From: a virus
Virus record (IMG/VR): IMGVR_UViG_3300020463_000118
Span: 1 to 25,456 of that record
Length of the DNA: 25,456 nucleotides
Reading direction: 5' to 3' (one strand)
Below, in pieces: positions 1 to 24,513 of this stretch; positions within the stretch are counted from its first letter, which is position 1, and the number at the start of each line of letters is the position of its first letter. Both the position numbers and the translations under genes were made by a program. Below the pieces are notes generated by a model. That model made no database searches and was not told where the DNA came from. It saw only the letters and a list, made by a program, of their open reading frames with translations.

Positions 1-143
1 TTAATTGCACCAACTAAATCAGAATCAACTGTAGTCGTTAATCTTGCAAGACCACCAACTTCTTTACCAATTGTGTTTGAGTTTGTAACAAACTGACTAA
101 AGTTATCGGTAGTAAAGGTTTTTGTAAAATTACTATCAGGCAT
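1..143 (-). CDS. Fibre-like structural protein, N-terminus only (runs off the left edge)
   Basis: The reading frame opens with ATG at 143-141 and stays open to the window edge, giving about 47 residues. It begins MPDSNFTKTF and contains a segment of the type IGKEVGGLARLTTTVDSDLV followed by GAI. This resembles the 'G-L-x-x-L-T-T-x-x-x-S-x-L-V-x-A-I-N' signature common in phage tail-fibre and baseplate-fibre proteins. Its start overlaps the stop of the upstream coiled-coil gene by 8 nt, so the two are probably translationally coupled as the distal part of the baseplate operon. The fibre assignment is inferred from this short motif only; most of the protein lies outside the window. Confidence 0.6.
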   Translation of the reverse strand, partial: MPDSNFTKTFTTDNFSQFVTNSNTIGKEVGGLARLTTTVDSDLVGAI

Positions 144-7920: not shown

Positions 7921-7928
7921 TATTTATA
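7921..7928 (-). promoter_or_regulatory. T4-type late promoter upstream of the 333-aa fibre gene
   Basis: TATAAATA on the minus strand (within GTATAAATAG) lies in the 36-nt gap upstream of the ATG at 7899. It matches the T4 late promoter recognised by gp55 sigma with the gp33/gp45 co-activators. With T4 spacing, transcription would start near 7915, leaving a 16-nt leader that contains AGGA (7910-7913). Confidence 0.75.
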
Positions 7929-11275: not shown

Positions 11276-11283
11276 TATTTATA
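11276..11283 (-). promoter_or_regulatory. Late promoter abutting the gp25 start codon
   Basis: TATAAATA on the minus strand is followed by GAAGT and then the ATG of gp25 (11270-11268). The full string AGTATAAATAGAAGTATG is identical at the starts of the 195-aa gene (20672) and the tape-measure gene (22936). With T4 late spacing, position +1 falls on the A of the ATG, and no Shine-Dalgarno sequence at usable distance is seen. Confidence 0.72.
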
Positions 11284-20161: not shown

Positions 20162-20169
20162 TATTTATA
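20162..20169 (-). promoter_or_regulatory. Late promoter of the minus-strand baseplate operon
   Basis: GTATAAATAG on the minus strand lies 30 nt upstream of the gp48 ATG. T4 spacing would put the start near 20156, leaving a 25-nt leader with an AGGA ribosome-binding site. It should drive gp48 and the roughly 20 kb of co-directional baseplate genes, helped by internal promoters at 11276 and 7921. Confidence 0.8.
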
Positions 20170-20174
20170 CACAA

Positions 20175-20657
20175 ATGAAGACATACAAAGGAAGATATAA
20201 AGTAAAAAATATAAAAAAGTATAAAGGTGACTACACAACAGTCATCTTTCGTTCTCTATGGGAACGTAATTGTTTCCGTTGGTGCGATGATAATCCAAAG
20301 GTACAATCGTGGAGTTCCGAAGAAGTTGTTGTTCCGTATTTTTATGAAGTAGACAAAAGATATCATCGATATTTTCTTGATTTGAAAATAACATTTAAAG
20401 AAGGTAATACTATCTTAGTAGAGATAAAACCTGACTCTCAGACTAAACCACCTAGAAAGGGAAGTAGAAAAACTAAGACCTTTATAAACGAGGCTGCAAC
20501 CTATGTTAAGAATATGAATAAATGGGATGCAGCTAATGAGTTTGCAAAGGACAATGGATATGAGTTTCAAATCTGGACGGAAAAAACTTTAGAGTCTATG
20601 GGTATTCTACCAAAATCTATGAAACCCTTAAAACCTTTTACAAAAAGAAAAAAATAA
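20175..20657 (+). CDS. 4: Head completion protein gp4, PD-(D/E)xK/TnsA-like fold
   Basis: This 160-aa protein (T4 gp4 is about 150 aa) is needed to finish DNA-filled heads before tail joining. Its recognisable stretches are IFRSLWERNCFRWCDDNPKV, QSWSSEEVVVPY, HRYFLDL and LVEIKPDSQTKPP, the conserved gp4 pattern. Candidate nuclease residues are E30 (LWER), D69 (FLDL), and E83 and K85 (VEIKP), the E-D-ExK arrangement of TnsA-like PD-(D/E)xK enzymes. The C-terminus is strongly basic (PFTKRKK). It is the first plus-strand gene, divergent from gp48. In T4, gene 4 lies co-directional with and beside gene 53, so this block has been inverted relative to T4. No clear Shine-Dalgarno sequence precedes the ATG. 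Confidence 0.9.
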   Translation: MKTYKGRYKVKNIKKYKGDYTTVIFRSLWERNCFRWCDDNPKVQSWSSEEVVVPYFYEVDKRYHRYFLDLKITFKEGNTILVEIKPDSQTKPPRKGSRKTKTFINEAATYVKNMNKWDAANEFAKDNGYEFQIWTEKTLESMGILPKSMKPLKPFTKRKK

Positions 20658-20658
20658 G

Positions 20659-20666
20659 TATAAATA
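20659..20666 (+). promoter_or_regulatory. Late promoter abutting the start of the 195-aa gene
   Basis: TATAAATA is followed by GAAGT and then ATG (20672), all within the 14-nt gap after gp4. AGTATAAATAGAAGTATG is identical to the gp25 and tape-measure starts. Late-promoter geometry puts +1 on the A of the ATG. Confidence 0.72.
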
Positions 20667-20671
20667 GAAGT

Positions 20672-21259
20672 ATGTCAAATATATTCCAGAAGTTAGAACT
20701 TGCGGCTTTTAGAAATCAGATTACTCCAAGAACAGCTGAGAGTAGAGCATGGTTTATGGATAAAGCAAAGACTATGCGTGGTATTAATCGTGAAAACTTA
20801 ATGCAAGAAGACCCATTAACAAGAAGTAGTCGTAGAATTATAGGTTCTATGCAAATGTTTTACTATGACCCAAAACATAAAGAAACTCTACCTTATTACG
20901 ATAGGTTTCCATTATCAATTATAATCAAACCCGCAAAAGGTGGTTTTCTTGGAATGAACTTACACTACTTACCACCAATACTTCGTGCTCAGTTCCTTGA
21001 TGCACTAATGGATAATGTGACAAGTACAAAGAGTGATGACGCAAAATTTAAAATAACTACAAGATTACTTGCGGGAACAAGTTCTTTAGAATTTTATAAA
21101 CCTTGTATTAAACACTATTTGACTGCACATGTAAAAAGTAAGTTTGCAGAAGTAAAAGCACCTGAATGGGAGATTGCAACCTTTTTACCAACCGCAATAT
21201 TTGAAAAAGCATCGAAACAGAAAATATACTCAGACAGTAGGAAAAAAATAAATGGCTAG
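20672..21259 (+). CDS. Conserved T4-like phage protein of unknown function, 195 aa
   Basis: This 195-aa protein has a conspicuous block MQMFYYDPKHKETLPYYDRF, PLSIII and GGFLGMNLHYLPPILRAQFL (residues about 61-112). I recognise this pattern ('Y-D-P-K ... LPYYDRFPL ... GFLGLNLHYLPP') as recurring in marine T4-like phages without an assigned function. The N-terminus is helical and charged. The C-terminal part (HYLTAHVKSKFAEVKAPEWE) is also helical. There is no membrane segment or catalytic motif. It lies between gp4 and the tube-like protein and overlaps the latter by 8 nt. T4 genes 3, 2 and 4 are neighbours, so a neck or DNA-end-protection role is possible by position, but I see no sequence support for it. 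Confidence 0.7.
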   Translation: MSNIFQKLELAAFRNQITPRTAESRAWFMDKAKTMRGINRENLMQEDPLTRSSRRIIGSMQMFYYDPKHKETLPYYDRFPLSIIIKPAKGGFLGMNLHYLPPILRAQFLDALMDNVTSTKSDDAKFKITTRLLAGTSSLEFYKPCIKHYLTAHVKSKFAEVKAPEWEIATFLPTAIFEKASKQKIYSDSRKKING

Positions 21260-21995
21260 AATAGACGATTTAAAATCAGAAATAACGGGTGGTGATGGTC
21301 TTGCACTTGCAAACCGATTTAGAGTATTTTTACCACCAGTAGGTGGTGCGTCCGCAAGAAGTTTAGATTTACTTTGTAAAAGTGTTACTTTGCCTGGAAA
21401 ACAAATAATGTCTACAGATTATCCACTCGGTGCAACAAATAGAAAAATTGCAAATGGACATGCATTTGCAGATGTCTCTATGACCTTTATTGGACTGAAT
21501 GACTTTAAAGCAAGAAAATATTTTGATACATGGCAAGCAGCTGCATTGAATCCTAGTAGTTTAGAATTAGGATATTACAAAGAATATACCAAACCAGTAG
21601 TGATACAACAGTTAGAAAAGAATGCAAAATCTCCACTATTTGGGCCAGAAAGTATATTTGACCAAAAATTACCAAGTCCAATTGCAGAAAAATTACCAAG
21701 TGTTGGCCCAATAGATTTTCAAAATGGTACTTTTGATTTAGGTTTAGTTGGACGACAAGATTTAACAACTTTAGCAGAAGGTGTAAACTATTCTGTAAGA
21801 CTTAATGAAGCATACCCCACTACTTTGAATGAAATACCTTTATCAAACGAACAAGATGGTTTAGTTGAAATAACCGTCCAACTGTCATATAAAGACTTTA
21901 CTATAGTTGAAGGTAATATAAAAGATAAACTATTAGATAAAGTTATGGAGAAGACTGGATTAAATGATATATTTCCAGACTCACTTAGTTTCTGA
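21252..21995 (+). CDS. Tail-tube-fold protein (gp19/gp54-like, probable tube initiator)
   Basis: This 247-aa protein follows the tail-tube pattern. ANRFRVFLPP (about residues 20-29) is the first strand, LLCKSVTLPGKQIMSTDYPL (40-59) is the C-x-x-x-x-(L/I)-P-G loop, and VSMTFIGLNDFKARKYFDTW (about 75-94) is the helix-bearing segment. T4 gp19 is 163 aa, and T4 gp54 (320 aa) is the tube-like initiator on gp48. The intermediate length and the place among baseplate and tape-measure genes favour a gp54-type role. A major tube protein would be expected beside the sheath gene gp18, which is not here. Residues about 130-170 are a Pro-rich insertion. The gene overlaps the preceding one by 8 nt. Confidence 0.72.
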   Translation: MARIDDLKSEITGGDGLALANRFRVFLPPVGGASARSLDLLCKSVTLPGKQIMSTDYPLGATNRKIANGHAFADVSMTFIGLNDFKARKYFDTWQAAALNPSSLELGYYKEYTKPVVIQQLEKNAKSPLFGPESIFDQKLPSPIAEKLPSVGPIDFQNGTFDLGLVGRQDLTTLAEGVNYSVRLNEAYPTTLNEIPLSNEQDGLVEITVQLSYKDFTIVEGNIKDKLLDKVMEKTGLNDIFPDSLSF

Positions 21996-22029: not shown

Positions 22030-22743
22030 ATGAATAATGTTTTACCAAAGATAAATGCGACACCTTCGCACGAGTTGACAATCCCGTCAACTGGACAAAA
22101 AATAAATTTTCGTCCATATCTTGTAAAAGAAGAGAAGATACTTCTTCTTGCATTTGAGTCTAATGACAATAAAACTGCAATGAAAGCAATGGTTGATACC
22201 ATTCTTGCATGTATTTCAGAACCTTTAGACCCTTCCAAACTTGCAACCTTTGATATCGAATACATGTTTACTCAAATTAGAAGTAAATCTGTAGGTGAAT
22301 CTGCAAAGGTAAATGTAAAATGTGAAGAGTGTGATACTGAAAACGAAATAGCAGTAGACTTAGGTACTGCAGAAGTTGAAATGCCCGAAGACATTGTCAA
22401 AAGAGTTGAAATAACAAAAGAAGTTTCAGTAGAACTTAAATTTCCTTCTTATGAAGTACTTTATGACATGAAAGAAGGTTTGACTGAAACTGCAATGACT
22501 TATGATATTGTAAACAGTTGTATCGATGCAGTTGTGACAGAAGATGAAAGAATTGATGTCGCAGATGTTGGAAAAGAAGAGTTGAATACTTTTATTGAGT
22601 CTATGAATGGAGAACAGTTTAAAAGAATAACTGATTTTGTTCAACAGATGCCAATATTAAGAAAAAATATACAATTTAAATGCAAAAATTGTGGTCACGA
22701 AAACGATAGAGATTTACAAGGTATTACTGATTTTTTTTCTTAA
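22030..22743 (+). CDS. 26: Baseplate hub assembly protein gp26 / tail-assembly chaperone
   Basis: This 237-aa protein (T4 gp26 is 208 aa) matches the T4 baseplate gp26 family. It has ELTIPSTGQKINFRPYLVKE followed by EKILLLAFES (residues 15-44), the usual 'LPSTG ... RPF-x-V-x-E-E-K-x-L-L-x-A-x-E-S' pattern. Two CxxC pairs (C98/C101 in CEECDTE and C218/C221 in CKNCGHEN) should form a zinc ribbon. The frame ends GAT TTT TTT TCT TAA. A T_TTT_TTT heptamer just before the stop allows a -1 shift into a 64-codon open frame, giving a 300-aa product. Its place between a tube-fold gene and a tape-measure-like gene is that of gpG/gpGT-type chaperones. Confidence 0.9.
   Translation: MNNVLPKINATPSHELTIPSTGQKINFRPYLVKEEKILLLAFESNDNKTAMKAMVDTILACISEPLDPSKLATFDIEYMFTQIRSKSVGESAKVNVKCEECDTENEIAVDLGTAEVEMPEDIVKRVEITKEVSVELKFPSYEVLYDMKEGLTETAMTYDIVNSCIDAVVTEDERIDVADVGKEELNTFIESMNGEQFKRITDFVQQMPILRKNIQFKCKNCGHENDRDLQGITDFFS
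22731..22737 (+). promoter_or_regulatory. Candidate -1 ribosomal frameshift site (T TTT TTT)
   Basis: The run of eight T at 22731-22738 contains X_XXY_YYZ in register with gp26: T | TTT (22732-22734) | TTT (22735-22737). A one-base slip back makes the next codon TTC (22737-22739) and bypasses the TAA at 22741. P2 gene E uses a related T-rich slippery site for its E+E' product. I did not find a strong stem just downstream. Confidence 0.65.
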
Positions 22744-22931
22744 ACCTTTCGCATGATAGTTTAGTTAATTATTATCAAACAAACTTTGCATTGATGCAGA
22801 ATTATCAATATAGTTTGACTGAACTAGAGAATATGATACCGTGGGAAAGGGAAATATACATCACTTTATTACTCGAATGGGTAAAAAAACGAGAAGAAGA
22901 ACAAAAAGCAAACGAATCTAAGTATAAATAG
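22737..22931 (+). CDS. -1-frame extension of gp26 (gpT/E'-like domain)
   Basis: The -1 frame is open from the T-run to TAG at 22929-22931, adding 64 residues to the first 236 of gp26. The translated extension includes LSHDSLVNYYQTNFALMQNY, QYSLTELENMIPWEREIYIT and LLLEWVKKREEEQ. This helical, charged 'L-x-x-(L/I)-x-x-(M/L)-(I/P)-x-x-E-R-E-x-x' style is typical of frameshift-encoded tail-assembly chaperone C-termini. No ATG with a ribosome-binding site lies near its beginning. The first in-frame ATG (22794) would give only 45 aa and has no good RBS. It could alternatively be a stand-alone gp51-like gene. The frame fills a gap of about 190 nt that would otherwise be empty in a very compact genome. 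Confidence 0.72.
   Translation, partial: FLNLSHDSLVNYYQTNFALMQNYQYSLTELENMIPWEREIYITLLLEWVKKREEEQKANESKYK
22923..22930 (+). promoter_or_regulatory. Late promoter abutting the tape-measure start codon
   Basis: TATAAATA, GAAGT and then ATG (22936) form the third copy of AGTATAAATAGAAGTATG. The stop of the -1 gp26 extension (TAG, 22929-22931) is embedded in the motif. Late-promoter spacing again puts +1 on the A of the ATG. Confidence 0.72.
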
Positions 22932-22935
22932 AAGT

Positions 22936-24513
22936 ATGGCTGATACTGCAACATTACAAATACTAGAAATTGCAAAGGATATTTCTGCTACAAATGCATC
23001 TACGCAAAGTGCAATTCAAAAACAAGAAGCAACTTTAGAAGTCCTCGGTGACACTATGAAGTCTCTTGTTGAAGGACAAAAAGGAAACGCACTCGAAGAC
23101 GAAGAAAAAAGAAGGAAAGAGGCGAAAGCGGTCTCACAAAGACCAATGTTTATCAACCTTGATAAAACTGGTATTAAATCTGCAGATATGGGTATAGGTT
23201 TTTCTGCAGCTATTTTAGGGTTAATAAGAGGACTTTCAATAGAATTTGGAATAATGATAAAAAATGCTTCCATAGTTGCAACTAAAGCAATAAAAAGTTT
23301 TTATATTTTTATACTTGGTGGTAAAAATGGTAGAATTCTAACATTTCTTAGAAGTCTGAGAAATGCATTTACAACCGCTTTTAAGTTTCCAACTTTATCT
23401 AAATTTATGAACCTTAAAGGTGTTACACGCCCAATCGCTGCTTTAGGTCGTTTTGTAGGAAGAATTACACAATTTTTTCAAAACATAGGAAAACAAACCC
23501 AAGGTATACTTAAAAGTTTAAAGGACTCTTCAAAACTTCAATCGTTTTTTCTAGCAATGAAAAATTTTGGTCTTAGAATAATTAAACCTTTTACTGAGGC
23601 TCAAAAAACTATAACTGCAACAGTAAAAGGATTTCAAGGTGGTAATTCTGCTCTTAAATCTTTGTCTAAAGTAGGTGACTTTGTTAAAAAAGCATTCCCA
23701 CTTTTTAGACAGTTTGGTGCTATATTTACAACCATAGGTCGAGTTATTTTTCTTCCTTTAAATGCGATTATCGGATTGTTTGCTGGTATAAGTGGAATGT
23801 TTAAAGGTATTGAAGAACAAACAGAAAAAGACCGTGGAATAGGATTTCAAATATTAGGTGGACTGACTGGTGCAATAGAAGGTATTATTAATTCCTTAGT
23901 TATGTTGCCTTTTGACTTCTTTAAAGGTGCAGTTGCATGGATATTAGATTTAATAGGTTTAGATTTTATTGCAGACATACTTAGGTCTTTTAGTTTCCAA
24001 GATATGTTTTCAGGAATAATTGACAGCTTTATGGGTCTGTTTGACGGATTTGAAGATGGTTTTATGTCAGGTGTAGGGGGAATGTTTAGTGGTTTAATGA
24101 AAATCATGGGAAGAATAATAAAATTCCCACTTGCACTTGCGGCTGGAGCTGCAGCTGCATTGGGTGGACTATTTTTTGGTGACCCGATAGGTGCATTTAA
24201 ACGTACCTTTAGTAAAGTTTTAACAGCGGGAGAAGGAATAGCAGGAGAACTAACATCTAAGGTTGGTGATGCTATGACCGCAACTCCAGTAGGAAAAGAC
24301 AAAAAATTAGCTAGAGCATCATCAACAACAGAAGGTTCTTTAAATAAACTTAGTGATTCCAATCAACAATCCAAACAGACAATAATTAATAATGTTACTG
24401 ACGCTTCAAGAACAGAAAATCGTAGTGGTGGTGGTGGTGGAAGTTCAGTATTTATTCCTAATGCTGGTAATACCGCAAATCCTAATTTAGAAAGTATTCA
24501 ATCAGTCCAATAA
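22936..24513 (+). CDS. Tape-measure-like tail protein (gp29 position)
   Basis: In this 525-aa protein, residues 1-70 are helical and charged (MADTATLQILEIAKDISATN, then TLEVLGDTMKSLVEG). Several hydrophobic stretches follow: around 85-110 (GFSAAILGLIRGLS), 270-295 (FLPLNAIIGLFAGISGMF), 305-355 and 397-420 (ALAAGAAAALGGLFFG). Basic amphipathic helices lie between them. The C-terminus is Gly/Ser/Asn-rich (RSGGGGGSS) and disordered-looking. Tape measures are long helical proteins with hydrophobic segments that can insert into the host membrane at injection. T4 gp29 is 590 aa. At about 0.15 nm per residue this one would span roughly 80 nm. It lies right after gp26 and its frameshift frame, as expected. 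Sequence identity to gp29 cannot be asserted. Confidence 0.72.
   Translation: MADTATLQILEIAKDISATNASTQSAIQKQEATLEVLGDTMKSLVEGQKGNALEDEEKRRKEAKAVSQRPMFINLDKTGIKSADMGIGFSAAILGLIRGLSIEFGIMIKNASIVATKAIKSFYIFILGGKNGRILTFLRSLRNAFTTAFKFPTLSKFMNLKGVTRPIAALGRFVGRITQFFQNIGKQTQGILKSLKDSSKLQSFFLAMKNFGLRIIKPFTEAQKTITATVKGFQGGNSALKSLSKVGDFVKKAFPLFRQFGAIFTTIGRVIFLPLNAIIGLFAGISGMFKGIEEQTEKDRGIGFQILGGLTGAIEGIINSLVMLPFDFFKGAVAWILDLIGLDFIADILRSFSFQDMFSGIIDSFMGLFDGFEDGFMSGVGGMFSGLMKIMGRIIKFPLALAAGAAAALGGLFFGDPIGAFKRTFSKVLTAGEGIAGELTSKVGDAMTATPVGKDKKLARASSTTEGSLNKLSDSNQQSKQTIINNVTDASRTENRSGGGGGSSVFIPNAGNTANPNLESIQSVQ

Follow-up and report, generated by a model that had tools for sequence, protein, structure and literature searches.

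Organization of the gp26 locus

The window, meaning the whole stretch of DNA analyzed here, is a 25,456-base viral record (IMG/VR IMGVR_UViG_3300020463_000118) from an uncultured, marine T4-like virus. The gene order at the locus, all on the plus strand, is tail tube, gp26/51, probable tape measure. The upstream gene (21252–21995) encodes a tail-tube-fold protein (phrog_45 tail tube, 2.1e-33). The gp26 homologue (22030–22743) is the short form, TAC-N, of 237 aa. It matches PF12322, the T4 gp26 family, at E 3.1e-57 (194 bits against a gathering cut-off of 24.5) and phrog_150 at 6.6e-58, and its AlphaFold2 model has a pLDDT of 93.7. The downstream gene (22936–24513, 525 aa) is the probable tape measure gene. 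We base this identity on the gene's position together with a weak match (phrog_26084 tape measure, E 0.0027), because BLAST found no similarity between it and the downstream gene of P-SSM2.

The gp26 gene ends GGT ATT ACT GAT TTT TTT TCT TAA. The original prediction, an in-phase T_TTT_TTT three codons ahead of the gp26 termination codon, is what the locus holds: the heptamer occupies 22731–22737 on the plus strand in the gp26 (0) frame, within a run of eight consecutive T (22731–22738), and the 0-frame stop TAA lies 3 nt 3' of it (22741–22743). The −1 frame is bounded by a TGA at 22728–22730, is open from 22731, and closes with a TAG at 22929–22931. Counted from a slip at 22737 it holds 64 codons, the length originally predicted, and the extension so defined (TAC-C, the ‘gp51’ domain) spans 22737–22931 on the plus strand. 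The predicted product of a shift is 236 + 64 = 300 aa long (...GITDFF-FLNLSHDSL...). The first ATG, GTG or TTG in this frame is a TTG at 22791, which is extension residue 19 and past the start of the conserved domain. In profile searches, the extension hit phrog_634 (gp51, ‘baseplate hub assembly catalyst’) with an E value of 1.2e-24 and also the final positions of phrog_150, the gp26 profile.

A T4-late-promoter-like TATAAATA overlaps the end of the extension (22923–22930, plus strand) and has a counterpart in this position in L014, the closest relative. This is probably the promoter meant in the original prediction, which had the extension ending at a tape-measure promoter and start. Five copies of TATAAATA, the T4 late promoter consensus, occur in the window (7921–7928, 11276–11283 and 20162–20169 on the minus strand; 20659–20666 and 22923–22930 on the plus strand). 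Each precedes a gene start in the matching orientation by no more than about 30 nt, although chance could produce this many copies.

By itself, the gp26 heptamer is unremarkable in so AT-rich a window, where 75 in-phase X_XXY_YYZ heptamers occur in 8309 codons. Besides the gp26 site, just one of these opens a −1 frame of more than 37 codons, which corresponds to the next annotated gene and has an ATG of its own. In the window gene at 20175–20666, an AAAAAAA in phase precedes the stop by 6 nt; the gene that follows occupies the −1 frame but has an ATG of its own at 20672. This run of A is probably due to chance.

Conservation across relatives and in T4

Tblastn searches found the extension in 560 phage records and gp26 in 694. 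Phages with the extension were mostly cyanophages, and also included pelagiphages and phages of Methylophilales, Vibrio, Rhizobium and Sinorhizobium. Alignments of gp26 served as queries for collecting relatives. The comparative set comprised 340 usable loci, taken from isolates as well as viral contigs, with 298 unique gp26 proteins. The single window protein used as the query gave one relative.

An in-phase T_TTT_TTN was present near the gp26 stop in 276 of the 298 unique homologues, corresponding to 82 of 87 clusters at 50% identity and 35 of 39 at 40%. The stop follows at a distance of 6–15 nt, with two cases at 30 nt. The last base of the heptamer is C in 155 sequences, T in 115, A in 3 and G in 3; the six variants with TTT TTA or TTT TTG exchange Phe for Leu and retain the slippery site. 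The joint probability of a constant NNT TTT at this site, calculated from each gene's own codon usage over 82 clusters, is about 10^-44, an approximate figure that takes the clusters as independent, which is fair for synonymous sites below 50% protein identity. Conservation of the heptamer had been proposed as a check on the original prediction, and the check came out in its favor. GC-rich phages keep the heptamer as well. It reads GAT TTT TTC in Acidovorax and Stenotrophomonas phages, with gp26 of Acidovorax phage ACP17 ending ...GAC GAT TTT TTC GTA TAA; in an Agrobacterium phage, the context is GAT TTT TTT. To judge from these sequences, the slip-critical bases are maintained against codon bias in GC-rich phages. 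One locus lacking the heptamer, L172, is short of a single T compared with the related locus L096, and the missing T (around 2220) is probably a homopolymer error in the database genome.

In all 272 closed cases among the relatives, the extension is 55–71 aa long (median 64) and never truncated. Its consensus is FFxxxLSHxxLxNxYxTNFxLMQHHKYSLTELENMxPWERxIY. The median dN/dS is 0.36 over 1303 pairs; between the window and its nearest relative (L014), dN is 0.09 and dS 0.62. By these sequence comparisons the extension evolves under purifying selection, which is the protein-level constraint that the original prediction had set as a test of itself. In 105 of the 276 heptamer-bearing relatives, the window included, no standard start (ATG, GTG or TTG) occurs between the point where the −1 frame opens and codon 13. 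Homologues with a start of their own and no T-run had been named as the pattern that would speak against a frameshift; what we found were these 105 sequences with no start, and phages P-SSM2 and S-SRM01, which have an ATG yet keep the T-run.

The gp26 genes of Ackermannviridae (L012, L098, L102, L103 and L313–L332) have no T-heptamer. They end NTT-TTY-x-stop, with an invariant NTT TTY in which NTT encodes Leu, Val or Ile, and their −1 frame still encodes the gp51 domain. The sites include G_GTT_TTC, A_ATT_TTC and G_ATT_TTC. In Serratia phage 2050H1 the site is G_GTT_TTC, identical to the heptamer found in phase close to the end of T7 10A; the 10B form of that gene carries a join annotation. 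These sequences suggest that NTT TTY is possibly a variant slippery site like that of T7 gene 10. A stop–start overlap (TAATG) may instead serve in this family, although no standard start occurs in 10 of the 15 distinct sequences.

T4 carries relatives of both parts of the locus. T4 gp26 matches PF12322 over its whole length, and T4 gp51 (249 aa) matches it over residues 1–201 (3.9e-52). In hhalign comparisons, the gp26 profile aligned with T4-type gp51 at E 1.2e-12, reaching the position of the slip-site FF, and the extension profile aligned with T4 gp51 residues 200–246 at 9.1e-8. The junction of the T4 gp51 domains aligns at the FF of the slip site. On these alignments, T4 gp51 joins a gp26-like domain in frame to the same extension and is not the extension alone, so that T4 has a separate gene for the short form and for the long form, the two being divergently oriented. 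T4-type gp51 was found in 1339 records. The gp51-type identity first proposed for the extension stands, on both the phrog_634 match and the alignment to the T4 gp51 C-terminus.

In Foldseek searches the gp26 model matched T4-type gp26 as well as a T4-type gp51 (Acinetobacter phage ZZ1, 1.6e-6), and an AlphaFold model of T4-type gp51 has nearly the same order of elements as gp26, plus three C-terminal helices. Against the PDB, the HK97 tail assembly chaperone 2ob9 ranked second for the gp26 model (prob 0.66, E 0.4, not statistically significant), and the T4-type gp51 model had no match. No solved structure matching gp26 or the extension by sequence was found.

Candidate stimulatory elements and the probable route to the long form

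Most relatives have a strong anti-SD-pairing element of the GAGGGA type upstream of the heptamer. Pairing across the family peaks for 8-mers ending 5–9 nt upstream of it, where the mean falls to −5.65 kcal/mol, compared with about −0.5 at most flanking positions. It is stronger than in synonymous resampling (−6.1 vs. −5.0, p 7e-8), indicating selection beyond the protein. The window differs from most relatives in this respect: its candidate upstream stimulator, CAAGGT at 22717–22722 on the plus strand, is weak (duplex −4.0 kcal/mol).

On the 3' side, the family RNA from 5 to 65 nt downstream of the heptamer is more stable than shuffled sequences (mean z −1.6), with z below −1.5 in 46% of sequences vs. 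4% in a control region. Of 275 sequences, 79 can form 8 or all 9 pairs of a stem between heptamer +14..22 and +61..69, after a 7-nt spacer; no other register tested reached this except in 6 cases at −5. Among the loci from rhizobial-phage queries the arms of this stem pair better than swapped arms do, with 7.23 pairs vs. 6.83 (maximum 7.09 of 2000). The window RNA downstream of the heptamer has no significant structure (z −0.72), and for this reason we claim no 3' stimulator there. Because the SD-like element is weak and the downstream RNA is not significantly structured, frameshift efficiency in the window could be low.

The comparative sequence evidence makes it very probable that a −1 frameshift on T_TTT_TTT yields a gp26–gp51 fusion beside gp26, the two acting as a G/GT-type chaperone pair. 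A fraction of the ribosomes on gp26 would slip back one base at the heptamer, with the P- and A-site tRNA-Phe re-pairing with TTT TTT. The slipped ribosomes would read 64 more codons, giving the 300-aa fusion in addition to gp26 of 237 aa. If the pair works as lambda gpG/gpGT does, many TAC-N (short) and few TAC-NC (long) copies would coat the tape measure protein; the extension would recruit tail tube subunits, and both chaperone forms would then leave. We infer the synthesis of both products and their ratio, and position, family and analogy point to the chaperone (TAC) function of gp26 and the fusion. Both the −1 frameshift and the G/GT analogy were part of the original prediction, and heptamer conservation, the missing alternative start, selection on the extension and the homology to T4 gp51 all bear them out.

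Conceivably, gp51 could be an independent gene that has a start of its own and is translated through internal initiation or stop–restart coupling after gp26. Most records annotate it so, including P-SSM2 and S-SRM01, where it begins at an ATG just after the gp26 stop; an ATG lies within 13 codons of the slip site in 85 of the 276 relatives, and a KVP40-type phage (L094) has TAATG. However, the window and 104 others have no ATG, GTG or TTG there, and the heptamer persists even where an ATG is present. The SD-like element is positioned relative to the heptamer (5–9 nt upstream) rather than to those ATGs. Annotations with a forced start remove conserved residues (Mosig, Melnitz), and elsewhere the gene is omitted (S-BM3, Sf-CH1b). 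We regard a separately initiated gp51 as improbable.

Slippage of RNA polymerase on the T-run, which would shift the frame in the mRNA instead of on the ribosome, is more improbable still. The window's eight consecutive T would suit it, but 155 of the 276 relatives have TTTTTTC, and a run of only six T is usually too short for polymerase slippage. Nor would transcription need the codon phase relative to gp26, which is strictly kept, and the family has an SD-like stimulator that is ribosomal in nature. The least probable explanation, which we give almost no weight, is a chance heptamer next to a decayed or mis-sequenced fused gene. Although in-phase heptamers are common in the AT-rich window, the same layout occurs in hundreds of independent genomes, isolates included, and the extension is under purifying selection; the comparative data refute this reading.

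Ribosomal frameshifting at the gp26 site may also be part of a broader pattern, which we put forward tentatively and at slightly less than even confidence. The chaperone frameshift of the T4 superfamily would use a dnaX-like cassette, in which T_TTT_TTN is preceded at 5–9 nt by an anti-SD element and, in one clade, followed after 7 nt by a covarying 3' stem. Ackermannviridae would have moved to a T7-gene-10-like site (G_GTT_TTC, N_ATT_TTC). There would then be at least three routes to the long form of one homologous chaperone: the T-heptamer, the variant heptamer, and gene duplication plus fusion as in T4.

Comparison with known systems

Vladimirov, Gautam and Davidson (Virology 2022, 566:9–15) reportedly identified the tail assembly chaperone genes of T4-like phages, and their abstract is said to name T4 gp26 and gp51. 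One later paper states, citing Vladimirov, Gautam and Davidson 2022, that poly-T slippery sequences are known in the TAC-N genes of T4-like phages (PMC12846349); another, with the same citation, states that some T4-like phages have one short gene and one longer, separate fused gene (PMC10274946). The poly-T −1 signal and the short plus long fused gene of these statements are the same system as in the window. They contradict the original prediction on one point, since it knew of no described case in T4-like phages. The window frameshift is a correct rediscovery of what was already reported for this group, to which the window adds a new member from an uncultured virus. The candidate upstream stimulator, the 3' stem in a distant subclade and the Ackermannviridae variant site may be modest additions.

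Atkins et al. 2016 describe G–T frameshifting as widely conserved in long-tailed phages ‘except T4’ (PMC5009743). Our results explain this exception: most testable gp26 lineages keep the frameshift, and T4 stands apart because it carries gp26, the short form, and gp51, the fused long form, as separate copies. The T4 proteins are homologous to those of the window, with gp26 as the short form and gp51 as a gp26-like domain plus the extension, but T4 has two divergent genes without a frameshift and the window has one gene with a slip site. T4 gp26 and gp51 are named hub assembly chaperones, and gp51 is described as required for assembly and missing from the final particle (PMC3004832); a T4 review mentions conflicting reports that gp26 may belong to the hub. 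Many phage records give gp51 doubtful starts or omit it altogether. Among records with the phrog_634 extension, gp51 has forced internal starts in Mosig and Melnitz and is unannotated in S-BM3, Sf-CH1b and S-CAM1.

Lambda gpG/gpGT likewise combines a short chaperone with a −1 frameshifted C-terminal extension adjoining the tape measure gene (PMC5009743). The system described here differs in its T-rich heptamer, in the SD-like stimulator of most relatives and in the contractile tail, and the two are compared by arrangement, not by sequence. Chaperone frameshifting in myoviruses is also represented by Vandenendeviridae (Pseudomonas phage Adele) and by P2 E/E'. The Vandenendeviridae slip site is T-rich, given as GTTTTT in PMC12846349, but this motif is unlike the T_TTT_TTN of gp26, and the likeness is again one of arrangement rather than sequence.
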